A stretch of 64,000 bases of DNA, taken from assembly GCA_003999685.1 (NCBI GenBank), contig CP021222.1, positions 2,046,001 through 2,110,000 of the forward strand. Direction: 5' to 3'. The first letter of the stretch is position 1. Each line of letters starts with the position of its first letter. A program made the position numbers and the translations under genes. The notes under the pieces were generated by a model. The model saw nothing but the letters and a program-made list of their open reading frames with translations, had not been told where the DNA came from and made no database searches. Positions 1,944 to 54,373 of the stretch are shown piece by piece. The DNA is from Taiwanofungus camphoratus. Taxonomy: Eukaryota > Basidiomycota > Agaricomycetes > Polyporales > Taiwanofungaceae.

Positions 1944-2339
1944 GTCACAAGTGGTTGCGATGTCAGAGCAAGTCTGTCATGCCTTAGGGCTAATCTATGA
2001 CCCTTCTGTGCAGCTAAATATGCAGTCTGCTAATGGCAGTATTGACCGTTCCTTAGGACTGGTTCGAAACGTCTCGTTCCAAGTAGGCGACATCGTGTTG
2101 TACCTACAGATGCACGTCATACGCAATCCCTCCTACGATATCCTTCTAGGCCGACCCTTCGATGTGGTAACCGAGAGTGTGGTTAAGAACTTCGGAAACG
2201 AGGAGCAGACCATCACGATCATATGCCCGAACACGAGCGAAGTCGCGACCATCCCTACGATGCCTCGAGGACGTCAAAAGTTCTTACCAGCCCATCATCA
2301 TAGTTGCCCCCACGCAAACTCTTCGAATCATTTGCGATC

Positions 2340-2346
2340 GGGTTTT
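2340..2346 (+). promoter_or_regulatory. Putative -1 ribosomal frameshift heptamer (GGGTTTT), family A
   Basis: In the ORF1 frame the bases read G GGT TTT followed at once by TAG (2347-2349). Slipping back one base at this point enters exactly the frame that encodes RT, RNase H and integrase. The heptamer fits the X XXY YYZ rule. Copy A3 has GGATTTT at the homologous place. A weak 6-bp inverted repeat (GATTTC at 2349, GAAATC at 2365) follows, but it is closer than usual and is imperfect in A3, so no stimulatory structure is claimed. Confidence 0.6.
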
Positions 2347-5300
2347 TAGATTTCGAGGATTTGAGAAATCAAGGAGAGGTCGCCCTGGTCGTTGAGTATG
2401 AATCCGATACCCCTAAAATCGTGTCTTTCGCTGCTGTAAATGCAGCAGATAACAATTCTGTTCCTGCGCTCTATCTATCAGTCTCTAACTCTGTGTCTAG
2501 CTATCTGCAGTCTCTCTATTTTAGCGAAACTTCGAAAGTCTCGGAAGGTCCTGCTGATCATACTAGGTGGCTATCTGGCTTTCTAGCAGCAGCAACACCG
2601 CCTGAGGCTCCCTCCCTTTCACACAATAATCCGAATTCTCTCCCTATGCTTTCGCTTTCCGCCTCTAAAGACATATCCTCTATCCCCATTTCAGGTCCCA
2701 GGAACGCTACGAAGGTCACGAAATCAGCCCGAAGACCTTCCCTTGCTCCTAATCCGATGGTATCCCTTCCTAAGTTGTCAGATTCTTCCCCCATTCCTAC
2801 ATTTGCAGCATCGAAAAAGAAGTATAAGCCTGTAGCGTTGAAGACTCGCCCTATTTTGGGAGCTTTGGACGAACGATTCCGAATCATTCGCGAAATTAAA
2901 GGCGACCCTTTAGCGACGATGCCTACCCTATCACCGACTCCACCACCTTTCGAACCTACTTTGCGATATACGCGAGAACGGCACGATCTCACGGACAAGC
3001 TACACAGCGGAGACTTCCTACAACCAGCAGAGAGGGACCTCCTACATCACTTTATGACCCTGCATGCTGATGCGTTCGCTTGGAATGATTCCGAAAGAGG
3101 GTGCTTCAAGCCGGAGTACTTCCCTCCCATCGACTTTCCGGTAGTACCGCACACGCCATGGGTACAAAAGAACATTCCTATCCCACCCGGAATCTACAAC
3201 GAAGTGTGCACAATAATCAAAAAGAAGATCGCAGCTGGGGTCTACGAACCTTCGAATTCTTCCTATCGTTCACGATGGTTTTGTGTGGTGAAGAAAGACG
3301 GAAAGTCCCTACGTCTCGTACATAGTCTGGAACCCCTAAACGCTGTCACAATTCAACACTCAGGTGTTCCCCCGACTCCCGAACACCTCGCAGAACAGTT
3401 CGGAGGACGACCTTGTGGTGCTATGTTGGATCTATATGTAGGCTATGATGAACGCTTGATAGCGGAGACTTCGCGCGATCTTACGACATTTCAAACACCT
3501 TTCGGAGCTATGAGATTGGTCACTCTACCTATGGGATGGACCAACTCGGTCCCTATCTTCCACGATGATGTTACGCACATCCTACAGCCCAAAATTCCTC
3601 ACCTAACGGTTCCCTATATCGACGATGTTCCGGTCAAAGGCCCTGAAAGTTCGTACGATCTCGTACCTATTTCGGAGAACCCAGGCATTCGAAAGTTTGT
3701 TTGGGAACATTTTACGAACCTCAATAGGATAGTCACACGCATGCGCTACACAGGAGGTACCTTTTCTGGAGTTAAAAGCATTCTAATTGCCCGCGAAATC
3801 ACCGTTGTAGGGCATCGGTGTACTCCAGAAGGTCGCCTACCGGACGAGTCTCATGTTGCAGCCATACGCAACTGGGGACCTTGTGCGACCCTATCTGACA
3901 TTCGAGCCTTTTTAGAAACCATTGGAGTGGTCCGTATCTTCATCCGAAACTTCGCACATCGTGCAGATGCCTTAGTACGCCTAACGCGAAAGGCGGTACC
4001 CTTCGAATTTGGTCCAGCGCAAATCGCAGCGCAGGAGGACCTTAAGGATGCTTTGCTGTCCTCCCCAGCTCTCCGATCCATTAACTATTCGTCAGGTGCG
4101 CCCGTGATCTTAGCGGTTGACACCTCCTATATTGCAGTTGGCTATCACCTTTGCCAATGCGATGAGGACAACCCTAAAGTTCGATTCTACAATCGTTTCG
4201 GATCCATCACCCTAAATGATCGCGAGCGGAGGTTCTCGCAACCGAAGTTAGAGATCTACGGATTGTTTCGAGCACTTCGCGTACTACGAATCTACCTAAT
4301 CGGAATTAGGAACCTTATAGTGGAAGTTGACGCACAATATATCAAAGGGATGTTGCAAAATCTGGACATCGCACCCAGCGCGAGTATAAATCGCTGGATC
4401 GTATCGATTCTAACCTTCCATTTCACCCTAGTACATGTACCAGGTACGATGCATGGACCAGATGGACTATCAAGACGAACCCCCCAGCCAGGAGATCAAG
4501 AAGAGAGCAGCGAAGAAGACTTCGAAGACTGGATAGACAAAATGCACTCGTTTCTACATCACATCCAAGCCCCCCCTTCCCATCCTATACCATCAATTTC
4601 TACCCTATTCCCTTACGAATTCGCCTCTAACATTCCTATCACAACCCCCACACCTCCGATAGCTCCAACCTTCGCCTCCGAGTTGGCTGAGGACAGCCAA
4701 GGTTTCAATAGGGAGGAGGAGAGCTACAATAGCGTCCCAAGATCCGAAATGGCCAAGGAAGCTGACGCAAGACTTGACTTAGTAGCAAAATTCCTACGAA
4801 GCCTCGCGAGACCTGCCAACCTATCGGATTCAGAATACGAAGGTTTCGTAAAATACTGCCTTCTATTCTTCCTCGACGAGGACATACTATGGCGCAAAGA
4901 TCCACAAGGAGCTCACAAACTAGTTGTAAAGCAGGCAGATCGTCTACGAATCCTCCGAGAATGTCACGATGCAGTCGCGCATCGAGGAATACATGCTACG
5001 AAGGTGCTGATTTCGGAGCGGTTTTGGTGGCCCTACCATCATATCGACATTGCCTGGTATGTTCGAAGCTGCCACCTATGCCAGATTCGCCAAGTGCGGC
5101 AGATCCTAATCCCTCCTACGGTCGCTACGCCCGCTCCGATCTTTGCAAAGGTTCATATAGATACCATGCATATGCCCCCTTCTAACGGATTTAGGTACTT
5201 GGTGCAAGGCCGGTGTTCTCTAACCCAGTACCCCGAATTTCGGATGCTTCACAAGGAGACGGCTAAAGCTTTGGCAGAATGGCTCTTCGAAGACTTTGTT

Positions 5301-6158
5301 TGTAGGTGGGGCGCGCTATCGGAGATAGTCACGGACAACGGCGCTCCCTTCGTAAAAGCTACGAACTACATAGCGAAGAAGTACCAGCTATGACACATCC
5401 GAATTAGCGGATACAATTCGCGTGCCAACGGGCTGGTGGAGAGGCCTCACTTCGATGTTAGACAGGCTCTATTCAAGGCCGTGGATGGCGAAGAGTCTAA
5501 ATGGTCTCAGGCAACGTACTCAGTCTTCTGGTCCGAAAGGATCACGACTCGAAAGCGCATGGGATGTTCGCCCTATTTTGCGGTCACTGGCACCCACCCT
5601 GTTATCCCTTTGGACGTCATAGAGGCCACCTATATCCTTCCTCCTCCGTCTTCTATGCTATCCACGACCGATCTTATCGCAAGTCGAGCTATCGCATTGC
5701 AAAAGCGGGTGACTCAGGTAGCAGAACTACATTCGAAGGTCTACGAAGCGCGAAGACAAGCTGCTCTGCGATTCGAAGAAAAGCATAAGCACTCCATCCA
5801 CGATTTCAACTTCGAAAAGGGCGATTTAGTACTTATTCGCAACACACAGATAGAAAAGTCCCTAAATCGGAAGATGCGACCTCGCTACCTCGGCCCAGTA
5901 CTCGTAGTATCTAGGAACAAAGGTGGTGCTTATATCCTATGCGAATTGGATGGTTCGGTACTCGACAGGCCTACGGCAGCCTTCCGAGTCATCCCCTACT
6001 TAGCGCGAAAAGCCCTCAAACTTCCTACCGAACTCTTGGACGTGTCGACGGAGCGACTTCACGAACTAGAGCTGACTACCACCCAAGGCGATGACGAAGA
6101 ACTAGGATCGTATCCCTACTCTCCTAAGTCCGGCTCTAGTCCATCCGAAGCTCACTAA
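2346..6158 (+). pseudogene. Family A pol: reverse transcriptase, RNase H, integrase, with one nonsense codon
   Basis: One frame runs from the frameshift site to TAA at 6156-6158, broken only by TGA at 5391-5393. RT includes a Y-I-D-D active site at 3615-3626. RNase H begins near 4108 with an A-V-D-T-S motif. An integrase zinc-binding region with H..H..C-H-L-C lies near 4975-5090. The integrase core has D near 5158 and T-D-N-G near 5330, and its glutamate lies just past the stop in N-G-L-V-E. The tail carries a GPY/F-like segment but no chromodomain. The stop sits before a His-Ile-Arg stretch and is probably a CGA to TGA change. A linker between RNase H and integrase contains a second polypurine tract. 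Confidence 0.85.
4683..4723 (+). other. Candidate central polypurine tract with upstream hairpin inside family A pol
   Basis: Positions 4683-4700 form a perfect 7-bp stem (TTGGCTG / CAGCCAA) with loop AGGA. After a 9-nt spacer comes a 14-nt purine run at 4710-4723. The 3' polypurine tract next to the LTR has the same plan: a 7-bp stem, the same AGGA loop, the same 9-nt spacer and the same AGGGAGGAGG tract. It lies in the pol linker between RNase H and integrase. Its use as a second plus-strand primer is inferred. Confidence 0.6.
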
Positions 6159-11002: not shown

Positions 11003-11390
11003 TCGCTAAGTCGCCCCTAGTCTTATCTAGTAGGGCTAACCGTTAGACATCACGTCTACCATCAAGACAGTCGACCCCACCGCTTGGGGATTGCCGACTC
11101 AAGTAAACAACGCGCCGCTTCTGTACGATCGTCTTCGTTGGACCTTCGTTGATCAGAACCTCGATCCGATCTACCCGAACTCCCCACTTGCGTGGGCAGG
11201 GACAATTTTGAATCGACGAGCACAGGAGAAATTAGCCTCCTATTTCAGACGTAACCCTCCGCCAGACGGAAGAGACCCAGCTGGTTTCTTTCCCGCATCG
11301 ATACCTTCGACACCGTTGATAACCACCCCAACCACTCCCACATTCCCATCACTTCCTTCCACACCCGTAACACCCACAACCCCTACCACG

Positions 11391-12413
11391 ATGGCTACTA
11401 TCGCAACAATGACCAGGGCGGAGCTCGAGGCGCTTATAGCGCACCTTTTGGCGCAACAGCAACAGGGGAGTCGACCCCTTAAGCTCGACATTCCTGCACC
11501 GGAGCCGTTCACCGGGCAAGGAGAAGATCTGGAGCGTTTCCTCCAGCGGGTGGAGCACTACCTCACTGCCACCAACAATCAGGGATTAAGCGATGATGCA
11601 AAGATCGCTTACACAGTCGCTCTCATGAAAGGAGGGCAGGACGCACGTATCTGGCGCGATACGTTTTACGAACGGGCCGCGGGAGGGCATGCTCCCTACG
11701 CTAGCTGGGACGTATTCAAGGCGAGCTTGCGACTCGCGTTCCCCGAGCACGAAGGAGTCCAGAGGGCTCACCAGGTGCTAATGGAGTTGCCGGCCAAGCA
11801 ACTAAACAAGAAGACCAGGGTCAGTACAAAGATGTACGTGGAGAGGTTCCGACTCCTGGCAGAGAAGGCCAAGTTAAAGGACGCTTTTACGAGCCTCCAA
11901 GGCCAACGCACCGAGAACGATTACCCCACGCTGAGGGCAATCTTCATCAAGGGTCTGGACCGCCAGATCTACACTACACTCGCAGGCCGCACCAATACGG
12001 AACGACCCAACTCTATGGAGAAATGGTACACCGATGTTCTTCACCTCGACACCGTCTACAGAGGGATCGACCAAACCCTCTCCGCCACTACCGATGTTGA
12101 CTACGGCGAACCCATGGAGGTGGACGCACTCGTTACCCCGCGTCCCACATCGTTTACCAAGAAGTGGGAGGACGGATGCAACCTCAGCGAGAAGGAAAGG
12201 AAGTATCACATGGACAATCATCTATGTTTCTACTGCCACAAGAGAGGGCACGCAGTGCGCAAGTGTCCGAAGAAGACGGCCAAAACAGGCCAAAGAAATA
12301 CCTCGAAGGAACCCGAGGCGCGGTCCCCCATGGATTTCCGCTCGTACATCAAGATGCTCTCATCAGATGAGAAAAGGGCGATGTTCGAGGAGTTAGGAAC
12401 GGAGGATTTTTAA
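11391..12413 (+). CDS. gag: Element C Gag
   Basis: Gag is the structural capsid/nucleocapsid polyprotein. The frame is open from about 11041 but the first ATG is at 11391, in a good context with A at -3 and G at +4. Upstream codons encode a Pro/Thr-rich stretch, so a non-AUG or spliced start is possible. The capsid region starts near P-E-P-F-T-G and L-E-R-F-L-Q-R-V. A CCHC zinc knuckle C-F-Y-C-H-K-R-G-H-A-V-R-K-C lies near 12228-12270. Gag ends in GAT TTT TAA at 12411-12413, which forms the frameshift site into pol. The coding sequence is intact with no internal stops. Confidence 0.85.
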   Translation: MATIATMTRAELEALIAHLLAQQQQGSRPLKLDIPAPEPFTGQGEDLERFLQRVEHYLTATNNQGLSDDAKIAYTVALMKGGQDARIWRDTFYERAAGGHAPYASWDVFKASLRLAFPEHEGVQRAHQVLMELPAKQLNKKTRVSTKMYVERFRLLAEKAKLKDAFTSLQGQRTENDYPTLRAIFIKGLDRQIYTTLAGRTNTERPNSMEKWYTDVLHLDTVYRGIDQTLSATTDVDYGEPMEVDALVTPRPTSFTKKWEDGCNLSEKERKYHMDNHLCFYCHKRGHAVRKCPKKTAKTGQRNTSKEPEARSPMDFRSYIKMLSSDEKRAMFEELGTEDF

Positions 12414-12445
12414 AGGGGCAGGGTGAGCCGACGCAACCACTGCCC
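12404..12445 (+). promoter_or_regulatory. -1 ribosomal frameshift signal between gag and pol of element C
   Basis: The heptamer GGATTTT (12404-12410) reads G GAT TTT in the gag frame and is followed at once by TAA. A 5-nt spacer precedes an inverted repeat GGGCAG (12416-12421) / CTGCCC (12440-12445) with an 18-nt loop. Slipping back one base enters the pol frame, which is open from this exact point. GGAUUUU is a known -1 slippery sequence in red clover necrotic mosaic virus. Confidence 0.85.
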
Positions 12446-15400
12446 GTATCCATTTCACTGTCCCGTGTTGTACTTGTAGTTCGGAATGACAGAGCTCTTC
12501 ACATTCCGATTACTGTGGGACGAAAAGCCGTCGAAGCCCGTGCCTTTATCGATAGTGGCGCATCGGGAATATTCGTGCATCCACGATTTGTTAAGGAACA
12601 CAAGTTACGGACTGAGGCGCTACCACGCCCAATACCGGTGTTCAACGTGGACGGCACTGCCAACAAGCAAGCGCTCATTAACAGACGAGCCTTGCTATCG
12701 TACAAAATCGGGAATGAGCTCCGGTTTGTCAAAGCATACGTGGCCAGTATAGGAAACGAAGACATCATCTTCAGACATACATGGCTCAAACTCGAGAACC
12801 CCAGTATCGACTGGAAGGGGGGTCGTGTAGAACTGAAGCACCGCATGACCCTGCAAGAATCTCGGGAGTGGAAGAAGGGGATCATCGCGCAACGAGTAGC
12901 GCGACTGGAGCTGAAGAAACTAGCCGAACGAAAACAGGAGGAAGCCCTGGATCCCGTGCTAGACTATGAGGTAGACTGGTCAGCACCCCCTTGTCCACAA
13001 GTAGCGGCATTCCTCGCCGAACGAGACAAACGCCTCAAGCAACAATGGCAGCCCACCATTGAGGAGGTAGAGGACGAAGGAGACTTCGAAGTGATCGACA
13101 CCATGTCTCCTGTCTTACCAACGACAGACATGTCTAGGCAGACGACACGCCGCGACACCCCAGTCGCACTCCTGGCAGAAGAATCGGTCAACGGTATCAC
13201 ATTGGATCAGGCGATGGAAACGATCGACGACGATGAACTGGTTATAGCGTTCATCAAGGGAGACGATCGGATCACGACGTATGGACGAAACTCGTACCCA
13301 GCGTATCGAGACGCACCTCTTACGGAGGAGAAGTACCCTCTCGACGGAACCTATCGTCGTCTAGAAAACGGTCTTATCTGGCAGGTCAAGCACGACATTG
13401 GTCGACTCACCACATCCACGGAACTCGCTATCAAGGAACACGCCAAGAAAGAGGAGAAACCGGTCACGGAACTCGTCCCCGAGTACCTCCACGATCTCCT
13501 CCTGGTGTTTGACAAAGCTAAGGCGGCGAGACTTCCCCAGCATTCGGAGTTCGACCACGAGATAAATCTCAAGCCGGATTTTAAGGACTTCAAGCAGACG
13601 ACGTATTCTCTTAACCGGAACCAACGAGCGGAACTGGACAAGTTCCTCGAAGAGAATGTAGAGAAGGGATACATCCGACCGTCCAAATCGCCACTCGCCA
13701 GTCCGTTCTTCTTCGTGGATAAGAAGGACGGCGGATACCGACCTTGCCAGGACTATAGGGAACTCAACGAGGGAACGATCAAAGACAGATACCCTCTTCC
13801 CCTCGTAACGGAGCTTCTGGAACGCCTCAATAATGCCACGATCTTCACAAAGATGGACCTTCGTCAAGGATACAACAACCTTCGCATCAAGGAAGGTGAT
13901 GAATGGAAAGCGGCTTTCGGTGTTCCAGCAGCAGGGGAAGGACCTCCCTCGTTCTACGAACCCCTGGTAATGTTCTTCGGGATGTGCAACTCACCAGCGA
14001 CATTCCAACGGATGATGAACACGGTCTTCGCAGACATGCTCAAGGAAGGATGGTTGGCAATCTATATGGACGACATCCTTATCTACTCGACAGACCCCGA
14101 GGAGCATAAGAAGCGAACACGGCGAGTTATCGAACGACTTAGAGATACCGATCTGTATCTCAAACCGGAGAAATGCAAATTCGACGTGCAAGAAGTCGAA
14201 TTCTTAGGCATGATCATTAGACCCGGACAACTCGCCATGGACCCCGTCAAGGTAGCCGGCATTAAGGACTGGCCAATACCTAAGAACCTCAGGGAGGTTA
14301 GGTCGTTCATCGGATTTGGAAACTTCTACCGTCGATTCATACACAGCTTCTCGCATCTGGCCCAGCCATTGGTCTCACTTACGCGAAAGGACGTCAAATG
14401 GCACTGGGACGAGGAACAGCAGAAAGCTTTCGAGGCACTAAAGAAAGCTTTCCTGGAACAACCGGTTTTGCAGATGCCTGACCCGGAGAAGCTGTTCGCG
14501 TTGGAAACGGATGCATCAAAGTTCGCCACGGGCGCCGTCCTCAGGCAAAAGGACGACAACGGCGATTGGCACCTGTGCGGTTATATTTCCCAGAGCATGA
14601 CACCAGCGGAACGAAATTACGACATCTATGACCAAGAACTCATGGGCGTCATGAGAGGACTCAACGAATGGAGTCACCTCCTCATCGAAAGCCCATATCC
14701 AGTCACGATTTATAGCGACCACAAGAATCTGACATACTGGAAGACGGCACGGAATCTGAATCAAAGGCAAGCGCGATGGGCTCTTCGCTTGTCCGAATTC
14801 GATTACAGGTTAATTCATGTCCCGGGCACGCAAATGGTGCAAAGCGACGCGCTCTCCCGACACCCCGACCACGATGACGGTTCATCAGACAACCAGGATG
14901 TAACCGTCCTACCAGACAAGGTATGGGCAGCGGCAATTGACACGAGTCTCAGGGCTTCCATTGCGGAAGCATGCGTAGATGACTCGGTGTATACGGAAGG
15001 GATGCGCAATGCACGAAACGGCTCAAACGACCACTGGACAATTCGAGACGGAGACCTCCTCTACGATAATCGGGTGTATATTCCCCTGGATGAGGATCTG
15101 CGACGACAAACGGTCTCGAATTATCACGACCTCCCCTCCGCCGGCCACCCTGGAATTCAGAAGACCCTCTCGTCTATTCGACGAGACTACTGGTGGCCTG
15201 GAATGGCTGACTTTGTCACGCGATACGTCAAAGGTTGCGGCACTTGCCAGCAAATGAAAGTTAACACGCACCCCACCCGACCGGCCCTACTCCCGATCAA
15301 ATCCGCGCAGCACGCCACTCCGTTCAGTACATTCTGCTGTGATTTCATTACGGATTTGCCGACTTCAGAGGGCTACGATTCAATTTTGGTCGTTGTGGAC

Positions 15401-16381
15401 CACGACCTTACGAAGGGGGTAATTTTCATTCCATGCAACAAAACGATTGACGCATCAGGAACAGCCAAGACATTATATCGCGAGGTGTACAAGTGGTTTG
15501 GTCTTCCGGACAAGATCATTAGCGATCGAGGACCACAGTTTGCATCAAAGGTATTCCAGGAGCTCTGCCGTATGACCGGAGTCAAGTCGGCTATGAGCAC
15601 AGCATTTCACCCTCAAACGGACGGAGAGACGGAACGAGTCAACCAGGAACTGGAGATCTACCTGCGATGCTTCACGAGCAACAACCCGGACAATTGGTCA
15701 ACGCTGCTGGGCTCAGCACAATTTGCTCACAACTCGCGTGAGCACTCTACGATTAAGGCGTCACCCTTCAAGATCATGATGGGCTATGAACCTCGAGGGA
15801 TTCCCGTCGTACACCCCAGATCGGACACACCGAGCGCCGCTTATCGACTGCAGAACTTGCAGAAGATTCGGGAAGACGCACACTCAGCAATGGAGCTAGC
15901 ACAGGTGGTGTTAGCAAGACACGTGAAACCTAAAGGAACGGGTTTTCGCAAAGGACAAAAGGTATGGCTAGACTCACGGAATCTAAAGCTGCCATACCCA
16001 ACGAGGAAGTTGGCTCTCAAACGCGAGGGACCCTTCGAAATCACGGACGTTCTAGGACCGGTGTCTTACAAGCTGAAACTCCCAACGACGTGGCGAGTAC
16101 ACCCCGTTTTCCACGCTGCACTTCTTTCGCCATACACCGAGACAGACACGCATGGTCCCAACTACACGGAACCACCACCGGAGCTTATCAGTGGCGAAGA
16201 TAACTACGAAGTCGAAGCTCTGGTCGGACATCGTGAGAATCGCCGAAGGAATCGCCGAGAATATCGAGTCAGGTGGAAAGGTTACTCATCCGCCGATGAC
16301 TCATGGGAACCGGAAGAAAACTTAACCAGTACTGCGGACGAGCTGCTAAATGCATATAAGCAGCGCAAGAATTTACGATGA
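12410..16381 (+). CDS. pol: Element C Pol: protease, RT, RNase H, integrase, chromodomain
   Basis: The -1 frame is open from the slippery site to TGA at 16379-16381. It has no ATG near its start, which supports production as a Gag-Pol fusion. The protease D-S-G-A-S motif is at 12551. RT carries Y-M-D-D at 14063-14074. RNase H begins near L-E-T-D-A-S (about 14501). The integrase HHCC module is near 15120-15255. The integrase core has C-D-F-I-T-D, I-S-D-R-G-P-Q-F and G-E-T-E-R-V-N-Q. A chromodomain (Y-R-V-R-W-K-G-Y ... W-E-P-E-E-N) ends the protein at about 16204-16375. There are no frameshifts or stops. Chromodomain elements are known to target marked chromatin. Confidence 0.94.
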   Translation, partial: LKGQGEPTQPLPVSISLSRVVLVVRNDRALHIPITVGRKAVEARAFIDSGASGIFVHPRFVKEHKLRTEALPRPIPVFNVDGTANKQALINRRALLSYKIGNELRFVKAYVASIGNEDIIFRHTWLKLENPSIDWKGGRVELKHRMTLQESREWKKGIIAQRVARLELKKLAERKQEEALDPVLDYEVDWSAPPCPQVAAFLAERDKRLKQQWQPTIEEVEDEGDFEVIDTMSPVLPTTDMSRQTTRRDTPVALLAEESVNGITLDQAMETIDDDELVIAFIKGDDRITTYGRNSYPAYRDAPLTEEKYPLDGTYRRLENGLIWQVKHDIGRLTTSTELAIKEHAKKEEKPVTELVPEYLHDLLLVFDKAKAARLPQHSEFDHEINLKPDFKDFKQTTYSLNRNQRAELDKFLEENVEKGYIRPSKSPLASPFFFVDKKDGGYRPCQDYRELNEGTIKDRYPLPLVTELLERLNNATIFTKMDLRQGYNNLRIKEGDEWKAAFGVPAAGEGPPSFYEPLVMFFGMCNSPATFQRMMNTVFADMLKEGWLAIYMDDILIYSTDPEEHKKRTRRVIERLRDTDLYLKPEKCKFDVQEVEFLGMIIRPGQLAMDPVKVAGIKDWPIPKNLREVRSFIGFGNFYRRFIHSFSHLAQPLVSLTRKDVKWHWDEEQQKAFEALKKAFLEQPVLQMPDPEKLFALETDASKFATGAVLRQKDDNGDWHLCGYISQSMTPAERNYDIYDQELMGVMRGLNEWSHLLIESPYPVTIYSDHKNLTYWKTARNLNQRQARWALRLSEFDYRLIHVPGTQMVQSDALSRHPDHDDGSSDNQDVTVLPDKVWAAAIDTSLRASIAEACVDDSVYTEGMRNARNGSNDHWTIRDGDLLYDNRVYIPLDEDLRRQTVSNYHDLPSAGHPGIQKTLSSIRRDYWWPGMADFVTRYVKGCGTCQQMKVNTHPTRPALLPIKSAQHATPFSTFCCDFITDLPTSEGYDSILVVVDHDLTKGVIFIPCNKTIDASGTAKTLYREVYKWFGLPDKIISDRGPQFASKVFQELCRMTGVKSAMSTAFHPQTDGETERVNQELEIYLRCFTSNNPDNWSTLLGSAQFAHNSREHSTIKASPFKIMMGYEPRGIPVVHPRSDTPSAAYRLQNLQKIREDAHSAMELAQVVLARHVKPKGTGFRKGQKVWLDSRNLKLPYPTRKLALKREGPFEITDVLGPVSYKLKLPTTWRVHPVFHAALLSPYTETDTHGPNYTEPPPELISGEDNYEVEALVGHRENRRRNRREYRVRWKGYSSADDSWEPEENLTSTADELLNAYKQRKNLR

Positions 16382-21927: not shown

Positions 21928-22608
21928 ATGGACCCTAAGGCTACGCATATGACTTAAATTACGGAACTCTCAGACGATCTCGCTTCTAAAACAACGCTAG
22001 TGACCTCCGAACTATCGTGTCACAGTGAACCCCTTGTCCCTGGTTCGACCATCATTCCAGACCCCTATGAAACATACTTACGACACATACTCGGAAAGGA
22101 AGAACCCTCTGAAATCATAGTAGCCCACGACTCGAACTCTATCCATTCTATCAAAGCCCTAATCGACAACAAAGAGTGAATCGAATGCATCGTGGACTCT
22201 GGGTCGCAAGTGGTTGCGATGTCAGAGCAAGTCTGTCATGCCTTAGGGCTAATCTATGACCCTTCCGTGCAGCTAAACATGCAGTCTGCTAACGGCAGTA
22301 TTGACCGTTTCTTAGGACTGGTTCGAAATGTCTCGTTCCAAGTGGGCAACATCGTGTTGTACCTACAGATGCACGTCATACGCAATCCCCCCTACAATAT
22401 CCTTCTAGGCTGTCCCCTTGATGTGGTAACCGAGAGTGTGGTTAAGAACTTCAGAAATGAGGAGCAGACCATCACAATCATATGTCCGAACACAAGCGAA
22501 GTCGCAACCATCCCTACAATGCCTCGAGGACGTCAGAAGTTCTTACCAGCCCATCATCATAGTTGCCCCCACGCAAACTCTTCTAATCATTCGCGATCGG
22601 ATTTTTAG
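21928..22608 (+). pseudogene. A3 ORF1 (N-terminus and protease), with nonsense codons
   Basis: It is homologous to A1 ORF1 without the inserted LTR. The frame has TAA near 21955 and TGA at 22177-22179, the latter being CGA in A1. The protease retains D-S-G-S near 22198. The ORF ends G GAT TTT TAG, the slippery heptamer at 22599-22605. This copy shows the uninterrupted target into which the solo LTR landed in A1. Confidence 0.82.
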
Positions 22609-23037: not shown

Positions 23038-23539
23038 TGTTACTGTCGGGTAGGACTAGAGACGTGTTCGTTTTTTCTTTCCCTCTGTTTGTCACACCAT
23101 GGACGCGCGGCATCCCTTCCACACCTTACTTACCCAGATTGACTGACGGGCCGACCGTCCCCGCTTACGCCATGGTAGTTATGTACTTTCGGGCCGCTGA
23201 CTCCTCTCACCTTATGCGGTCTCTGGGGGGCTGCTAGTATACCTGGGGGTTGGCGGTGGCAGTATAAGAAGGGGGTCCCACTGTTGGAGGTTCCCTTAGT
23301 CGTATTCTCTTCGTTCATCCTTCCTAAAGTGTACTACGCATTAGTACCAATACACGCTGGTCTTTCTCACATCTCTTTGTACCGCAAGAAGCCCGTGAAA
23401 GACTATCGCGACTACATAGGGCTTGTAGTTGAAGACTACTGAGGATTGTGACTCGTCGTCACCGTCGTTCCTCTTCGACCCTTCGCTGCACACCGCTCCA
23501 AGCTTCTGCAGCATTATCAGGGTGAACCCCCCGGTAACA
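23038..23539 (+). repeat. 5' LTR of element B
   Basis: It begins TGTTACTGTCGGG and ends CCCCGGTAACA. The sequence matches the 3' LTR at 30257, the solo copy at 1443 and the reverse copies at 49246 and 56483. Confidence 0.96.
23263..23308 (+). promoter_or_regulatory. LTR promoter of element B: TATA box and predicted transcript 5' end
   Basis: TATAA lies at 23263-23267. AGTCGTATTCT at 23298-23308 starts 35 nt downstream and is exactly complementary to the primer-binding sequence beyond the LTR. The transcription start is inferred from this spacing. Confidence 0.7.
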
Positions 23540-23541
23540 TT

Positions 23542-23552
23542 AGAATACGACT
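23542..23552 (+). promoter_or_regulatory. Primer-binding site of element B (self-priming type)
   Basis: AGAATACGACT starts 2 nt after the LTR and is the reverse complement of AGTCGTATTCT in the LTR. The length (11 nt) and spacing (2 nt) are the same as in element C, with a wholly different sequence. Confidence 0.8.
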
Positions 23553-23605
23553 CCATAAACCCGAACCCGTCCTGGTTCGAGAGGTCACAAGAAGACAGTG
23601 CCTAA

Positions 23606-24229
23606 AAGACCCGTACCGGTCTCGAAGAAGGCGAGGTCAGCGTACTCATACGATTAGTACTGATCACCACGGATTATCAACGACCTTTTGATATCGACTA
23701 CGAACAAGAAGAAGAGCTGGATCACGCAGCATTTGACCCTACTCTCCCGACTTTAGAAGAAGTCCTGGATCGAGCTGAGCGCAACCTCAGAGCCATTCTA
23801 CACGCCGATAGTTCCACCAGCTTCCTCCCAGCTGAACAGAGGGAGCTGATCCTTTACACCCGCTCCCGCATCTCCAGAGCCAGCGACGCTTGGCAAGCCG
23901 TATTAGAAAATCACGACAGGCTGGCAAGGGAAGGGAGCCGACCGCTACCTCCCACTCCCTCTGAAGATTTTGACGAAGTCCTCGACCACCGTATCCTCAC
24001 TGCTCAGAAGGTGCTCTCAAACCCACGTTTCTCATTTCAATTGGCCGTTCCCATAATTGTGAACCTATATCAAAGGCTACTGAGTGCCCGAGATTTCTAT
24101 CGCCGGTGGCAAGCTGGATCCATCCTCCAAAACGAGGCGGAGGTCGACCCTGACGTGCGCCGGGAAGGCTCATCGCTATCAAGCGGAGAACAATCGGGAC
24201 GTACACCGACATTACACGAAGACTTCTAA
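23606..24229 (+). other. Leader open frame without ATG upstream of B gag
   Basis: After a TAA at 23603-23605 this frame is open for about 207 codons to TAA at 24227-24229, with no ATG near its start. It reads as ordinary protein: an acidic region (Y-E-Q-E-E-E-L-D), R-A-E-R-N-L-R-A-I-L and P-L-P-P-T-P-S-E-D-F. It overlaps the annotated gag start in another frame. The reverse B copy keeps the same frame open (about 55793-56415). It may be a spliced or non-AUG-initiated N-terminal part of Gag. The mechanism joining it to gag is unresolved. Confidence 0.45.
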
Positions 24230-25643
24230 CTGGAGGGTCTGCTCAACGCAACCGTGCCCTCACCGCTACGACTCTGCACTCTACAGGGGAAGTGATTTCG
24301 AACCTTGTACTCCAACCAATCGTGCCCTCATCCAGGCCCGCTGGACAACCTTTGACGAAACCGACCCACCCTCCGACGAAGGCTCCAGCTCAGAACTAAC
24401 CGATCCTGACATTGAACGGACAGAACGACAAATGGAGACTGAAGGGACAGGAAAAACATCCCCTTCCACTCCGGAAACACCCCGTGGCTTGAGCTCTTTC
24501 CGATCAGGAATAGGGGAATCAGGGCCACCGCCTGACGATGGGCTAGGGGAGGAAGGCCCCCCCGAGGGAGGACCACCTGGTGGAGGAGGACCACCTGGCG
24601 GAGGAGGAACACCTGGTGGAGGAGGAACACCTGGCGGAGGAGTGCCCAGTGGAGGAGGACTACCCGGTAGAGGAGGACCACCTGGGGGAGGAGGACCCCC
24701 TGGGGGAGGACCCCCTGGAGGGGGGCAGCCGCCTGGAGGAACGCCCCTCCCACAGGGAGCTGCACGGGTACCGGACCGAAAAGAGCCAGAAATTACTAAG
24801 TTCTCTGGAAAGCGAGAGGATGCCCGACACTTCCTCATCCAATTTGCCCGAAGATTTGACACCGAGCGATGGGCCTCTGCTTCCGAACGAGAAAAGGTCG
24901 GCAATTTCCTTGGCCACCTCGAAGGCCATGCTGGTGCCTGGGCCGATACTCTCACCGAAAAGGCACTCGAACCCCACCCCCTCATCCGAGGGGTGAGCCG
25001 GGGGTACGGCACTTTCAGGAATGTCGCTCTCGAGTTCATCAAAAGGTTCGGGGTAATAGAGGAGGAGGTCTCTGCAGCCATCGAACTACGGAACTTGGTC
25101 TACACCTACGACAAACCCATTGCCGATTTCAACGAGGAGTTCGACCGACTGGCCCGCAGGGCAGAAATCACCGAAGAAAGTGCCCTTATGGCCTGGTACC
25201 GAGAAAAACTACCCAGCACCATGCGAGTCCGAATCATGGAACGAGATGTAGCCCCCACAACCCTAGAAGGATGGAAGGAAGCTGCTGCCCAACGGGACCG
25301 GGCCTATCGAAACAACAAGGCCATCGATGCCGCTCAAAGAACTTCGAAAACCCCTCCACGAGTCGCAGCAAGGGCATTTGACAGTGGGAAGCCAGACCAT
25401 CAGCGCTTGCAAGACCGAAGGACGGGCTCCTGCTACAAATGCCACAATAAGGGGCACCTGGCCAAAGACTGCCCGGAGCGAACCTCGGGTCGGGGAACAG
25501 GACCCCCAAACCGAAGGGCCAACATGAAAGATGAAAACGAGGCGGATGATGAAGCCTCTGAGCAGGAGGAGCAGGGGCAAGAAACGAAAGGAGTAAGATT
25601 CCCCCACTTCTCTCAGCACCACGACTTTGTGGATTTTCTGTAA
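24084..25643 (+). CDS. gag: Element B Gag
   Basis: This ORF of 519 residues starts at the first ATG in frame; the first 50 or so residues overlap the leader frame and may not be real, so the true N-terminus is uncertain. An acidic Ser/Pro-rich region precedes a collagen-like run of P-G-G-G repeats (about 24560-24740). The capsid domain begins near I-T-K-F-S-G-K-R-E-D. A CCHC knuckle C-Y-K-C-H-N-K-G-H-L-A-K-D-C is at about 25431-25472. The C-terminus is acidic. Gag ends G GAT TTT CTG TAA, which includes the slippery site. The reverse copy is 525 residues because the repeat tract differs. Confidence 0.88.
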   Translation: MPEISIAGGKLDPSSKTRRRSTLTCAGKAHRYQAENNRDVHRHYTKTSNWRVCSTQPCPHRYDSALYRGSDFEPCTPTNRALIQARWTTFDETDPPSDEGSSSELTDPDIERTERQMETEGTGKTSPSTPETPRGLSSFRSGIGESGPPPDDGLGEEGPPEGGPPGGGGPPGGGGTPGGGGTPGGGVPSGGGLPGRGGPPGGGGPPGGGPPGGGQPPGGTPLPQGAARVPDRKEPEITKFSGKREDARHFLIQFARRFDTERWASASEREKVGNFLGHLEGHAGAWADTLTEKALEPHPLIRGVSRGYGTFRNVALEFIKRFGVIEEEVSAAIELRNLVYTYDKPIADFNEEFDRLARRAEITEESALMAWYREKLPSTMRVRIMERDVAPTTLEGWKEAAAQRDRAYRNNKAIDAAQRTSKTPPRVAARAFDSGKPDHQRLQDRRTGSCYKCHNKGHLAKDCPERTSGRGTGPPNRRANMKDENEADDEASEQEEQGQETKGVRFPHFSQHHDFVDFL

Positions 25644-25672
25644 GGCGACCCGACGTGACGCACGAGTCGCCT
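25631..25672 (+). promoter_or_regulatory. -1 ribosomal frameshift signal between gag and pol of element B
   Basis: The heptamer GGATTTT (25631-25637) is in the G GAT TTT phase. A 5-nt spacer is followed by a perfect 7-bp inverted repeat AGGCGAC (25643-25649) / GTCGCCT (25666-25672) with a 16-nt loop. The gag stop lies two codons after the slippery site. The -1 frame is pol and is open throughout. The reverse copy conserves heptamer and stem (54332-54373). Confidence 0.87.
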
Positions 25673-28600
25673 AAACTCTCTGTACGAAATGTAATTACCG
25701 GAACGCGCAAGCGCAATACACTTTATCTACCGGGTTACATCGTCGTAGGAGAGAAAGCCGTCGCTGCATGCCCCCTATTGGATAGTGGGGCTGACGCCAA
25801 CCTAATTCACCCCGACTTTGTAAGGAAGTGGGGACTCCCCACTCGACCGCTTCCCAGGACAGTAACCTCAACCACCATTGACGGCTCTACAAACAAAGGG
25901 GGACCGATTACCCACAGAGTCGAAGGGAGCATACGATTAGAAGGGAATGACATCCCAACCAACTTTTATGTCTCAAACATTGGAACGCTCGATGTAGTAC
26001 TCGGCAACCCCTGGCTCGCACAAGTCAACCCACGCATCGACTGGGTAGAAGGAACGCTCGAGATTGACCAAGCTCGACTCACAGAATGGCAAGGATACTA
26101 TGCCTGGATCATGAGCCAACCCACGACAGACGGAATTCCCCTGTGTCGAGCTTCCATTCATGAAGACAATGAGGAGCTTTCGGACATAATGTGTGCTTAC
26201 ACACAAGGAGAAGGGGTTCTGGGGATCTTCCAACAGAAAGGGCAGCCGCTCGTACGTGAAGACGGGCTACTGCAGGCCCTAAAGCCCACACAACTAGGGC
26301 TCAATCGACTAACACGCCTCCCTGACTCCCCACATATGGTATGGGATGTCCCAGAGCTCACGGAATTGGTGATCCCCAAGGACCCACCCCCATCCGTAGA
26401 AGACCTTGTCCCAGAATACCTGTGGGACTATAAACGGTTGTTCGAAAAGGAGGCTGCCAACCGGTTCCCAGAATCCAAGCCCTGGGACCATGCCATCGAA
26501 TTAAGGCCAGACTTTGTCCCCAGAAAATGCGCCGTAATTCCTTTGTCTCCAAATGAACAGGCAGCAATGGACAAATTTTTGGAAGAAAACCTGGCCAAGG
26601 GCTATCTCCGAGAATCGAACTCACCAATGGCGTCACCAGCCTTTTTTGTCAAAAAAAAGGATGGTACCTTGCGCCCGTGCCAGGACTACCGATACCTGAA
26701 CAAGGGCACGATCAAAGATGCCTACCCCTTGCCCCTCATAGGAGAGCTAATCGACAGGCTCCAAAGGGCCACTGTGTTCACTAAATTAGACCTCCGAAAC
26801 GGGTACAACAACGTACGGATCAGAGAGGGCGATCAATGGAAAGGAGCATTCATGGTCAAACATAGGAATCAGGACAAGATCGTCGAACCCACTGTCATGT
26901 TCTTTGGGATGTGCAACTCGCCGGCCACGTTTCAGCGAATGATGAATGACGCGTTCCAGGACATGCTGGCCGAGGGGTGGATCGCGATCTATATGGACGA
27001 CATCCTCATTTTCTCCGACAATATGGAAGCCCACCGAGAACGAACCAGACGCGTCCTACAACGGCTGCAGGAATGGGATCTATTTGTCAAGCCAGAGAAA
27101 TGCGCGTTCGATGTCGTCGAAGTTGACTTCTTGGGAATGACCATCTCACCTGGACAGGTGCACATGGACAAGGACAAACTGGCAGGAATCGCAGATTGGC
27201 CCATTCCTACTAGGGTCAAGGATGTGGAACGATTCATGGGTCTCGCCAACTACTACCGACGCTTCATCCACAACTTCTCCCACATCGCTCACCCCTTGAA
27301 TGTCATCAAGAAGAAACGCGCGGAGTGGAACTGGACCAAAGCCTGCCAGGAGGCCTTCGACGAGCTCAAACGGTGTTTCCAGAGCATGCCTATCCTTCGC
27401 ATGCCCGACCCGTCCAAACCATTCACCATTGAGGCCGACGCCTCTCTGGTAGCCACTGGTGCAGTGCTTCAACAACTTGATGAAGAAGGGCGGCTACACC
27501 CTATAGCTTTCCTCTCGAAGAGCCTGAAAGAAGCGGAGCGGAATTATCAAGTATATGACAGAGAGCTGCTGGCCATTGTCCGAGCACTCGAGGAATGGCG
27601 CCACCACCTTGAAGGAAGTGGACATCCGGTCACGGTGATCACCGACCACAAGAACCTCACCTATTTCCGAGAAGCACAACGACTCAACCGACGCCAGGCC
27701 CGATGGCAGTTATTCCTGTCACAATTTGACCTGCAACTATTAAACAAAAAAGGCAGTCGACTCATAGTCGCCGATGCACTCTCCCGGCGACCTGACCACC
27801 CAGGAGGGAAACATGACAACGAAGATGTCATCCTGTTACCAACAGACCTCTTTGTCAACGCCACCAACACTGCAATCATCGAAAAGATACGTGAATGTCG
27901 TACCCGTGACAGGATGGTCATCGAGACGATTGACGCTTTAAAACGGGGGAAGGTACCGCCATTCAAGGGCACAGGCTTTGCGCACACAAAGCTGGCAGAC
28001 TGGGACATTCAGGAGGGACTAATTTTATACAAAAACAGAGTTTACGTACCCCCTGATGATGATCTGCGCCGAGAAGTCATTCAACTCTGTCATGACACAC
28101 CAGCAATGGCACACCCAGGGGCACAAGGTACAATGGCCATCGCCCGAAGGGACTGGTTCTGGCATGGAATGTCTTCATTCATCGAGAAATATGTTGAGGG
28201 GTGCGCCAAATGCCAGGAGAGCAAGATCAACACACACCCAACGAAACCCCCCCTGATGGCCATCCCCACAGAGCCGAACTCAAGGCCATTCTCGCACATA
28301 TCAGTAGACTTCATCACTGACCTACCAGAGTCACAGGGCTTCAATGCACTCATGGTAGTGGTTGACAGAGAACTCACCAAGGGCATCGTGCTCATACCCT
28401 GCACCAAGAACATAGACGCGGTAGGGACGGCAGAGGCCCTACACCTCAATGTATACAGGCGATATGGCCTACCTGACCGGATGATATCCGACCGAGGACC
28501 ACAGTTCGCAGCGGCTGCATTTCGAGAATGGTGTAAGCTGACAGGAGTCAAGGCGGCAATGTCCACTGCCTACCACCCCCAATCAGATGGGAGTACAGAA

Positions 28601-29773
28601 CGGGTCAACCAGGAACTGGAGGCGGCCTGGAGAATCCTATGCGCAAATGACCCCCACACCTGGGTCAAACACATCCCCGAGTTCGAATTCGCACACAACC
28701 AGGTGCCGCATGCCGGAAGGAAGGAATCGCCATTCAAGCTCACCATGGGGTACAACCCGAAGGCCATCGGATCTCCACGACCCGCCGACAAATACCCCAC
28801 GCTCCAAGACCGCCTGACCCGGATCTCCGAATCCCGCAAAGAGGCTCTTGCAGCGCAAGAGCTAGCCCAGAAGCTGATGGAGGAACGAACCCCTTTTCCC
28901 TGGAAACCTTTCCAGGAAGGCGACAAGGTTTGGCTAGAAGCCACGAACCTCCGGCTAAGGACAATAAGTCGGAAATTTGACCCAAAGCGGCTTGGACCCT
29001 TCAAGATCACGGAAGTCAAGGGGCCACTGACGTACAAGCTACAGCTCCCGAGAACCTGGAAGATTCACCCGGTGTTCCATGCATCGCTGCTCACCCCATA
29101 CAGGGAAACGGCGGAACACGGACCCAACTTTCTGAAACCACCACCTGATCTGGTCGAGGGGGAAGAAGAGTACGAAGTCGAGGCCCTCCGCGGGCATCGC
29201 GCCCGACGTGGGAAATGGGAGTTTCTCATCAAATGGAAGGGATGGCCGGTCTCTGCCAGCACCTGGCAGAAGGAAGATGATCTACGGCATTCCCCTGACC
29301 TGCTGAGGCGTTATAAGAAGGCAAACCACCTAGGCATCAACCCAGTCGACAACCGTTCAACTGCCCTGCAAGGAGTCATTCCGCAGCACTTCAAAGCCAC
29401 CTCCCACCATGTCCCATCGAACCAACGCCGCCCGAGCCCGCCTTGCCGCCTCCATCCTCACCGCAGGGAATGCCCGAACACTGAATCCCTTTCTTCGGGG
29501 ACCGCAGAACCTCCCCAACTTCGCCGAGGGGATTGTCGTCCCCCTATCTCGCCAAGCAACATCTGGCCTCGCCGCCGACTTTCTGACCCCCGCCGACCGC
29601 CTCGGATGGGTGCTGGCCAACGAACGACTACGCCCGGCGGTGGACACCGCCCTCGTTGTCTGGCCCGATCTTGCGGCCCAGGTTGCCATTTTTCGACATC
29701 AGGCCGAGGTCGTCTTACACCTCGATCAGGTAATAAGGGGGTACAGAGGGGAGAGGGAGAAGGGAGAGCATGA
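25637..29773 (+). CDS. pol: Element B Pol: protease, RT, RNase H, integrase, chromodomain
   Basis: The frame is entered by -1 slippage and has no nearby ATG. The protease D-S-G-A-D motif is at 25781. RT carries Y-M-D-D at 26990-27001. RNase H begins near I-E-A-D-A-S (about 27430). The integrase HHCC module (H..H..C-A-K-C) is near 28090-28215. The core has V-D-F-I-T-D, I-S-D-R-G-P-Q-F and S-T-E-R-V-N-Q. A chromodomain (L-I-K-W-K-G-W) lies at about 29173-29330. About 145 further codons of low-complexity, basic sequence follow; 29409-29773 overlaps ORF3 in another frame. The second complete copy is nearly identical, so both are potentially active. Confidence 0.95.
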   Translation, partial: SVRRPDVTHESPKLSVRNVITGTRKRNTLYLPGYIVVGEKAVAACPLLDSGADANLIHPDFVRKWGLPTRPLPRTVTSTTIDGSTNKGGPITHRVEGSIRLEGNDIPTNFYVSNIGTLDVVLGNPWLAQVNPRIDWVEGTLEIDQARLTEWQGYYAWIMSQPTTDGIPLCRASIHEDNEELSDIMCAYTQGEGVLGIFQQKGQPLVREDGLLQALKPTQLGLNRLTRLPDSPHMVWDVPELTELVIPKDPPPSVEDLVPEYLWDYKRLFEKEAANRFPESKPWDHAIELRPDFVPRKCAVIPLSPNEQAAMDKFLEENLAKGYLRESNSPMASPAFFVKKKDGTLRPCQDYRYLNKGTIKDAYPLPLIGELIDRLQRATVFTKLDLRNGYNNVRIREGDQWKGAFMVKHRNQDKIVEPTVMFFGMCNSPATFQRMMNDAFQDMLAEGWIAIYMDDILIFSDNMEAHRERTRRVLQRLQEWDLFVKPEKCAFDVVEVDFLGMTISPGQVHMDKDKLAGIADWPIPTRVKDVERFMGLANYYRRFIHNFSHIAHPLNVIKKKRAEWNWTKACQEAFDELKRCFQSMPILRMPDPSKPFTIEADASLVATGAVLQQLDEEGRLHPIAFLSKSLKEAERNYQVYDRELLAIVRALEEWRHHLEGSGHPVTVITDHKNLTYFREAQRLNRRQARWQLFLSQFDLQLLNKKGSRLIVADALSRRPDHPGGKHDNEDVILLPTDLFVNATNTAIIEKIRECRTRDRMVIETIDALKRGKVPPFKGTGFAHTKLADWDIQEGLILYKNRVYVPPDDDLRREVIQLCHDTPAMAHPGAQGTMAIARRDWFWHGMSSFIEKYVEGCAKCQESKINTHPTKPPLMAIPTEPNSRPFSHISVDFITDLPESQGFNALMVVVDRELTKGIVLIPCTKNIDAVGTAEALHLNVYRRYGLPDRMISDRGPQFAAAAFREWCKLTGVKAAMSTAYHPQSDGSTERVNQELEAAWRILCANDPHTWVKHIPEFEFAHNQVPHAGRKESPFKLTMGYNPKAIGSPRPADKYPTLQDRLTRISESRKEALAAQELAQKLMEERTPFPWKPFQEGDKVWLEATNLRLRTISRKFDPKRLGPFKITEVKGPLTYKLQLPRTWKIHPVFHASLLTPYRETAEHGPNFLKPPPDLVEGEEEYEVEALRGHRARRGKWEFLIKWKGWPVSASTWQKEDDLRHSPDLLRRYKKANHLGINPVDNRSTALQGVIPQHFKATSHHVPSNQRRPSPPCRLHPHRRECPNTESLSSGTAEPPQLRRGDCRPPISPSNIWPRRRLSDPRRPPRMGAGQRTTTPGGGHRPRCLARSCGPGCHFSTSGRGRLTPRSGNKGVQRGEGEGRA

Positions 29774-30256: not shown

Positions 30257-30758
30257 TGTTACTGTCGGGTAGGACTAGAGACGTGTTCGTTTTTTCTTTC
30301 CCTCTGTTTGTCACACCATGGACGCGCGGCATCCCTTCCACACCTTACTTACCCAGATTGACTGACGGGCCGACCGTCCCCGCTTACGCCATGGTAGTTA
30401 TGTACTTTCGGGCCGCTGACTCCTCTCACCTTATGCGGTCTCTGGGGGGCTGCTAGTATACCTGGGGGTTGGCGGTGGCAGTATAAGAAGGGGGTCCCAC
30501 TGTTGGAGGTTCCCTTAGTCGTATTCTCTTCGTTCATCCTTCCTAAAGTGTACTACGCATTAGTACCAATACACGCTGGTCTTTCTCACATCTCTTTGTA
30601 CCGCAAGAAGCCCGTGAAAGACTATCGCGACTACATAGGGCTTGTAGTTGAAGACTACTGAGGATTGTGACTCGTCGTCACCGTCGTTCCTCTTCGACCC
30701 TTCGCTGCACACCGCTCCAAGCTTCTGCAGCATTATCAGGGTGAACCCCCCGGTAACA
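30257..30758 (+). repeat. 3' LTR of element B
   Basis: A 502-bp direct repeat of 23038-23539, with no difference that I can see. It is followed by the GTTGT duplication. Confidence 0.96.
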
Positions 30759-49788: not shown

Positions 49789-50595
49789 TCATGACCTGGT
49801 AGCTTCCTCGTCAGGCTGCTTCGACCCACTGATTTCCGACCAGGCAGCCCCTGCCTTGGGGCATTGGTCGGTGTCGTGATCGTCAGCGAAACAATCCAGA
49901 CAGCGAGGCGGGACGAAGGGCTCAACAGCCGGCTCCCCCAGTCGTGGCCGGTGGATGCAATCAGCAGCAACGTGATCGAGGCCCATGCAGAACTCACAGG
50001 CCCCAGCCCATCGGTCCAGGGGGCGGCACTCGGGGTGGAGACAAACTGTCCATTCGTCCTGCGTGGAGGGGGCTGGGCGCGTGATGACGGAGGAGGGTGG
50101 TAGGAGAGGCTCGAGGGCGGAGACGACGTCGGTGCGAAGGAGGAAATTGAGATGGGAGCGCGTAGCGTTACAGGCCTGCCAGTACGATATACCAATTTCC
50201 CGGATGGGGCTGGCCCACCATTTGGCTTCGTCATGCTCTCCCTTCTCCCTCTCCCCTCTGTACCCCCTTATCACCTGATCGAGGTGTAAGACGACCTCGG
50301 CCTGATGTCGAAAAATGGCAACCTGGGCCGCAAGATCGGGCCAGACAACGAGGGCGGTGTCCACCGCCGGGCGTAGTCGTTCGTTGGCCAGCACCCATCC
50401 GAGGCGGTCGGCGGGGGTCAGAAAGTCGGCGGCGAGGCCAGATGTTGCTTGGCGAGATAGGGGGACGACAATCCCCTCGGCGAAGTTGGGGAGGTTCTGC
50501 GGTCCCCGAAGAAAGGGATTCAGTGTGCGGGCATTCCCTGCGGTGAGGATGGAGGCGGCAAGGCGGGCTCGGGCGGCGTTGGTTCGATGGGACAT
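49789..50595 (-). CDS. B'' ORF3: 268-residue protein with two zinc knuckles
   Basis: It matches the ORF at 29409 except for about two residues (for example E-P-L-L-P against E-H-L-L-P), with both C-x2-C-x4-H-x4-C knuckles intact. It overlaps the pol C-terminus. Intactness in both young copies indicates it is a regular part of the family. Confidence 0.82.
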   Translation of the reverse strand: MSHRTNAARARLAASILTAGNARTLNPFLRGPQNLPNFAEGIVVPLSRQATSGLAADFLTPADRLGWVLANERLRPAVDTALVVWPDLAAQVAIFRHQAEVVLHLDQVIRGYRGEREKGEHDEAKWWASPIREIGISYWQACNATRSHLNFLLRTDVVSALEPLLPPSSVITRPAPSTQDEWTVCLHPECRPLDRWAGACEFCMGLDHVAADCIHRPRLGEPAVEPFVPPRCLDCFADDHDTDQCPKAGAAWSEISGSKQPDEEATRS

Positions 50596-54367: not shown

Positions 54368-54373
54368 AAATCC
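54332..54373 (-). promoter_or_regulatory. -1 frameshift signal of B''
   Basis: On the reverse strand the heptamer GGATTTT (54373-54367) is followed by a 5-nt spacer and the 7-bp stem AGGCGAC (54361-54355) / GTCGCCT (54338-54332). It is identical to the forward copy. Confidence 0.87.

Follow-up and report, generated by a model that had tools for sequence, protein, structure and literature searches.

A GGAUUUU heptamer and bulged hairpin at the gag-pol junction of gypsy-like retrotransposons of Taiwanofungus camphoratus: a probable and conserved -1 frameshift signal

The window analysed here is a 64,000-nucleotide stretch of the Taiwanofungus camphoratus genome (assembly GCA_003999685.1, contig CP021222.1, positions 2,046,001 to 2,110,000), in which three Ty3/gypsy-like families, designated A, B and C, figure in the analysis of the gag-pol junction; copies were searched for in the whole genome of 33.19 Mb in 15 contigs. 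The family C element lies on the forward strand. Its gag ORF (11040..12413, stop to stop) has a CCHC zinc knuckle near the end and terminates in TAA at 12411-12413, and its pol ORF (12371..16381), in the -1 frame, comprises protease, reverse transcriptase (RT), RNase H, integrase, SH3_Tf2-1 and chromodomain, the protease match being below the Pfam cut-off. Family B is represented by copy 1 on the forward strand, with a gag ORF at 24084..25643 (Retrotrans_gag, CCHC) and a -1 frame pol ORF at 25562..29773 that includes a chromodomain, and by copy 2 on the reverse strand, with its pol ORF at 50231..54442. Pfam matches to RT, RNase H, integrase and chromodomain were obtained for the pols of both families, and the order protease, RT, RNase H, integrase, chromodomain is in both that of a Tf1/sushi chromovirus. 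The CCHC knuckle of Gag is a zf-CCHC Pfam match in B and a CX2CX4HX4C pattern read by eye in C, the Pfam search of the C gag having returned no match.

The 5' LTR of B copy 1 (23038..23539, forward strand) is identical over 502 nt to its 3' LTR (30257..30758, forward strand) and the element is flanked by the 5-nt target repeat GTTGT, while the LTRs of copy 2 differ at 1 of 503 nt. Judged by this LTR identity (502/502 and 502/503) both B copies of the window are young; the LTR dating of C is weak, with a 283-nt stretch aligned at 94.3% identity and 11 gaps. A putative self-priming complement of 11 nt is found in B, 2 nt past the 5' LTR (within 23540-23575), which would pair with LTR positions 261-271; a complement of this length was reached in 2 of 2000 shuffles. 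In a protein search with the C pol the top matches that carry a species name are fungal (Rhodonia placenta, Lyophyllum shimeji), and the R. placenta relative possesses a dUTPase domain ahead of RT (Pfam E 5e-32). Two scans of viral contigs yielded no relatives. The window also contains a BRR2-like helicase gene at 59535-61199.

In both B and C the gag and pol ORFs overlap, and GGATTTT is the sole slippery heptamer in gag phase within each overlap when both the strict and the GGN forms are considered. In C the heptamer G_GAT_TTT (12404..12410, forward strand) abuts the gag stop, so that the junction reads G GAT TTT TAA. It is followed by the 5-nt spacer TAAAG (12411..12415), which contains the stop, and by a 6-bp stem formed by GGGCAG (12416..12421) and CTGCCC (12440..12445) around a loop (12422..12439) with a predicted short upper stem and a bulged A, all on the forward strand. 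In B copy 1 the heptamer (25631..25637, forward strand) lies 3 nt ahead of the gag stop TAA (25641-25643; G GAT TTT CTG TAA); the spacer is CTGTA, again 5 nt, and the 7-bp stem is made of AGGCGAC (25643..25649) and GTCGCCT (25666..25672), both on the forward strand. The heptamer of B copy 2 occupies 54367..54373 on the reverse strand. The earlier note on this DNA had placed the heptamers at 12404, 25631 and 54373 in the phase G_GAT_TTT, followed by a 5-nt spacer and a perfect stem of 6 or 7 bp, and all of this was confirmed. Its description of pol as open in the -1 frame from the exact heptamer base holds for the frame but not for the opening point, since the pol frame is already open upstream, from 12371 in C and 25562 in B. 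Pol was said to have no ATG, and this is correct up to its first methionine, which is residue 146 in C and residue 159 in B, counted from the shift; in both families this residue lies downstream of a DSG motif that we take to be the protease active site. The predicted Gag-Pol junction peptides are ...GTEDF-LKGQGEPTQPLPVS in C and ...DFVDF-SVRRPDVTHESPK in B.

A structure that stimulates -1 frameshifting is expected 5-9 nt from the heptamer. In dinucleotide shuffles, with the same stem length and loops of at most 20 nt, a perfect stem at exactly 5 nt arose in 24 of 5000 cases for C and in 6 of 5000 for B; with any spacer of 4-8 nt allowed, the counts rose to 126 and 23 of 5000, respectively. 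The 40-nt folds reach -18.1 kcal/mol (z -3.4) in C and -13.8 kcal/mol (z -3.2) in B, the z score dropping to about -1.3 (C) and -1.2 (B) in folds of 60 nt, and in both families the predicted fold is a two-part bulged hairpin. Pseudoknots at the junction were considered by eye only.

The conservation of this arrangement was assessed by reading the junction in all scored copies that cover approximately the whole of pol, 35 of C and 33 of B, drawn from 762 and 703 first-look candidates. GGATTTT is intact in every one of them (35/35 and 33/33), even where pol is interrupted by as many as 12 stop codons, and it is also kept in the two young B copies of the window, so that the loss of the heptamer from young copies, named beforehand as an observation that would speak against its function, was not seen there. 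TGA accounts for almost all stops that interrupt pol in the decayed copies (57 of 62 in C and 48 of 51 in B, by hand count), which is the pattern expected from methylated-CpG loss in CGA. The genome was also searched with cassette patterns, an approach that is blind to more decayed copies: the B pattern, with 3 or fewer mismatches allowed, occurs at 47 places, with GGATTTT at 44 and AGATTTT at 3, and the C/E pattern (E being the sister family described below) at 124 places, the heptamer being altered in 2 among the 100 listed. No pair of the lower stem is broken in 32 C and 10 E copies with separate gag and pol frames or in the 33 B copies; single changes to G-U occur in 1/32, 0/10 and 3/33, respectively, and compensatory double changes are absent from the same copies. 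The stems are nearly invariant, and the check for conservation and covariation suggested in the earlier note bears out the former, the lower stem varying too little to show the latter.

Twenty further loci were taken from 150 RNase H matches. Eleven of them (L103-L111, L113 and L122) are relatives of C with both gag and pol at the junction; they form a sister family, E, in which the 42 nt of the cassette are near-identical to those of C while the flanking codons differ widely. Another locus, L112, has the cassette with no open gag beside it, six (L115-L120) belong to a family D considered below, and L121 is a B element by its cassette. L114 resembles E but is broken up by unrelated insertions of sequence, and the cassette is absent from the 2.7 kb of it that were examined. 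With the 12 E-type copies, GGAUUUU with a 5-nt spacer and hairpin is documented in about 80 copies (35 C, 33 B), the downstream structure at 5 nt being conserved in B, C and E alike.

Between C and E the cassette differs at 0 or 1 of 5-6 fourfold sites in each pair compared, as against 39-55% of such sites in pol codons 61-600. Ten C copies were compared with 10 unfused E copies over those codons for which all 20 specify one amino acid. Among the 12 codons that follow the heptamer, 10 are of this type and 9 of these are identical in nucleotide sequence, vs 78 of 390 elsewhere in the part of pol that was aligned (Fisher p 6e-6); with the last three gag codons included the figures are 11/12 vs 98/516 (p 2e-7). 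The longest run of identical codons, 7, starts right after the heptamer, where the alignment anchor partly determines the first codon, and the next longest runs are 4 in pol and 2 in gag. The conserved patch extends from the heptamer to the 3' arm of the stem, with varying codons on either side, and the synonymous variation inside it (CCA/CCG) falls on the predicted bulged base. Double coding does not explain the constraint, because from codon 2 onward the patch lies past the gag stop. In single C-E pairs, 12-codon windows as conserved as the patch are found at 13 of 597 positions for L108 and L105, 13 of 596 for L103 and 58 of 597 for L107, and an identical patch could also stem from local C-E gene conversion. 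The layout and its conservation are plain in B, C and E, and so is the restriction of synonymous change between C and E; this constraint at the RNA level provides strong indirect evidence for frameshifting.

Family A is a separate case. Its heptamer G_GGT_TTT (2340..2346, forward strand) abuts the TAG stop of an ORF that ends in a protease, and the -1 frame ORF (2304..5393, forward strand) contains RNase H and an integrase zinc domain and is 1029 aa long vs 1284 aa in most other copies. A second piece, near 22587, has GGATTTT at 22599..22605 on the forward strand. Both heptamers had been correctly located in the earlier note, which went on to attribute one cassette to all three families; this we reject for A. 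GGATTTT at 22599 is a single-copy G-to-A variant, as the heptamer is GGGTTTT at 61 of 64 places in the genome, AGGTTTT at 2 and GGATTTT at 1 (60, 2 and 1 of 63 with a narrower pattern). No 6-bp stem is found in A at a spacer of 4-8 nt, the fold is unremarkable (z -0.34), and a 6-bp match 2 nt past the heptamer is broken, uncompensated, in the copies with GACTTC. The upstream ORF of L016-L018 ends in an aspartyl protease (Pfam E 4e-10), so the shift of A would fall between protease and RT and not after gag. A probably shifts at GGGUUUU at this point, without the hairpin of B and C.

Copies in which gag and pol share a single frame, the existence of which had been anticipated as an argument against frameshifting, do occur, in a minority of 3 of 35 C copies and 1 of 11 E copies. 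The fused C copies have an ORF of 1776-1780 aa; in two of them (L057 and L062) an A has been inserted ahead of the heptamer and in the third (L060) a C after it. The E copy L109 owes its fusion to a different insertion and has an intact stem. We read the fused copies as derived by 1-nt insertions. The L057-type junction is present at three places, two on contig C1 and one on contig C4, and the other two fused junctions at one place each, for which an assembly error is possible. Of 14 substitutions in the fused C copies 4 affect the stem, whereas the 32 unfused C copies together have 47 substitutions, 1 of them in the stem (Fisher p 0.008), in a comparison that was chosen post hoc and concerns few copies, two of them related and one of the three without any stem change. 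It is conceivable, although we consider it doubtful, that C is equipped with a natural switch from one of two expression strategies to the other and that the genome records the loss of gag-pol frameshifting. Under such a scenario the frames would have been joined by 1-nt insertions within about 10 nt of the heptamer, with two insertion sites in C and a different one in E. The fused form that occurs three times, on two contigs, may have multiplied as a lineage with a single ORF, and in fused copies, which could do without the shift, the stem would have decayed. The help of normal copies would suffice for the mobility of the fused ones.

In family D (L115-L120) the CCHC knuckle, protease and RT lie in one ORF of about 1595-1667 aa. 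Its pol is approximately 70% identical to that of B over 583 residues, GGATTTT was not found in the 2.7 kb examined of the six copies, and the B gag matched D at the knuckle only (2.7 kb of three copies); D possibly depends on other elements for Gag. Given the fused C and E copies and the single ORF of D, the shift is not indispensable in every lineage. A search for further gag families with PF03732 gave 5 places, and the gag matches at G000:C8:1708402-1708674 and G000:C14:980245-980517 lie within open frames of 1617 and 1020 aa; these two elements are perhaps single-ORF families.

A shift of this kind has precedent. Frameshifting by -1 is given as the predominant gag-pol strategy of the Tf1/sushi elements outside fission yeasts in PMC10085805, where marY1, MAGGY, Tcn1, skippy and Cgret are among the elements tabulated, and pol is placed at -1 in gypsy elements of Verticillium (PMC3441728) and Paracoccidioides (PMC4427930); a 2003 survey is summarised in PMC5009743. 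B and C resemble the Tf1/sushi chromoviruses in the CCHC Gag, the -1 pol and the chromodomain after integrase, and B also in the self-priming complement; the likeness is one of layout. The heptamer itself is that of the S. cerevisiae totivirus L-BC (PMC8780742, PMC9391438) and is proposed for the Xanthophyllomyces dendrorhous totiviruses XdV-L1A and L2 (PMC3561658), dsRNA viruses that were compared with our elements by the gag-pol heptamer alone. With these reports in print, the view that such a signal is little described in fungal gypsy elements is too strong. The literature searched, which omits most subscription papers and the 2003 survey, gave no title that links GGAUUUU to a gypsy element of a fungus.

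A match in layout is found with certain plant RNA viruses. The umbravirus PEMV, as described in PMC4737148, has G_GAU_UUU, a relaxed slippery form, with a stop 3 nt on, a 5-nt spacer and a bulged stem-loop tested by mutation, which is the layout of B. The dianthovirus RCNMV, like BYDV, is reported in the same paper with a 5-nt spacer and the stop directly after the site, and C matches RCNMV in heptamer, stop at 0 nt and spacer; the mention in the earlier note of GGAUUUU as the -1 site of RCNMV is borne out there and in PMC3561658. In both PEMV and RCNMV, however, the signal is described as pairing over a long distance with the 3' region of the RNA (PMC4737148), while no such partner beyond chance was found in the window copies of B and C, where the longest complement of the loop is 7 nt, a length that shuffled loops reach in 1765 of 2000 cases (C) and 1733 of 2000 (B). 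These viruses are a different kind of element and we do not claim common descent. As judged from sequence comparison, the signal of B, C and E, leaving A aside, is a real conserved recoding signal of a known kind.

We consider -1 programmed ribosomal frameshifting at GGAUUUU with the bulged hairpin to be the best explanation for B and C, and with them E, at a probability of about 0.88; the frameshift reading of the earlier note is thereby upheld for B and C, and A becomes a GGGUUUU case without the hairpin. Ribosomes would translate gag to its end, and at G_GAU_UUU the two tRNAs would re-pair one base back (GAU to GGA, UUU to UUU), with the assistance of the hairpin 5 nt downstream and probably also of the stop codon 0 or 3 nt past the heptamer. 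A minority of ribosomes would continue into pol to make a Gag-Pol fusion with protease, RT, RNase H, integrase and chromodomain, and the remaining ones would stop and yield Gag. The slippage itself, its rate and its stimulation by the hairpin we infer from the features described above. The contribution of the hairpin is where another explanation has most to offer, namely that slippage needs no more than the heptamer with its neighbouring stop and that the hairpin is no stimulator, its conservation reflecting another RNA function such as packaging or stability, or else C-E gene conversion. This would accord with family A, where heptamer and stop occur without such a hairpin, with the lack of covariation in the stem and with the other pol stretches that are equally conserved in single C-E pairs. 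Nevertheless, we find it unlikely, as the conserved patch runs from the heptamer to the stem's 3' arm and is flanked on either side by variable codons, and as stem changes are concentrated in the fused C copies, small and post hoc though that difference is.

The two explanations that dispense with slippage appear far less probable. If an intron removed the gag stop and restored the frame, Gag-Pol would be made from spliced RNA, and in the window C copy one GT-AG pair would restore the frame and has a motif resembling a donor site. That candidate lacks a branch-site motif, however, and the same consensus gave no frame-restoring candidate in the window copies of B and A or in the 8 E copies examined of the 11; splicing would, moreover, leave the retention of the heptamer unexplained, and the idea now seems to us very improbable. 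An intron across the junction was dismissed, the consensus scan having given no plausible candidate. No greater weight can be given to separate initiation of pol, or reinitiation past the gag stop. The immediate vicinity of pol to that stop and the position of the hairpin after it would suit such a process, but, AUG starts being considered, the first methionine in the pol frame comes at residue 146 (C) or 159 (B), beyond the DSG motif, and separate initiation would have no need of the heptamer.

On the frameshift reading, these families possess a compact, conserved 42-nt recoding signal in a fungal retroelement, with a layout matching that of certain plant RNA viruses. The signal is also of relevance for genome annotation, as in Cryptococcus Tcn1, where a wrong intron is reported to have been annotated at a junction of this type (PMC10085805). 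The many copies in the genome amount to a collection of natural mutants, among them copies in which the junction is bypassed in frame, and it is these fused copies that would be the part most worth following.
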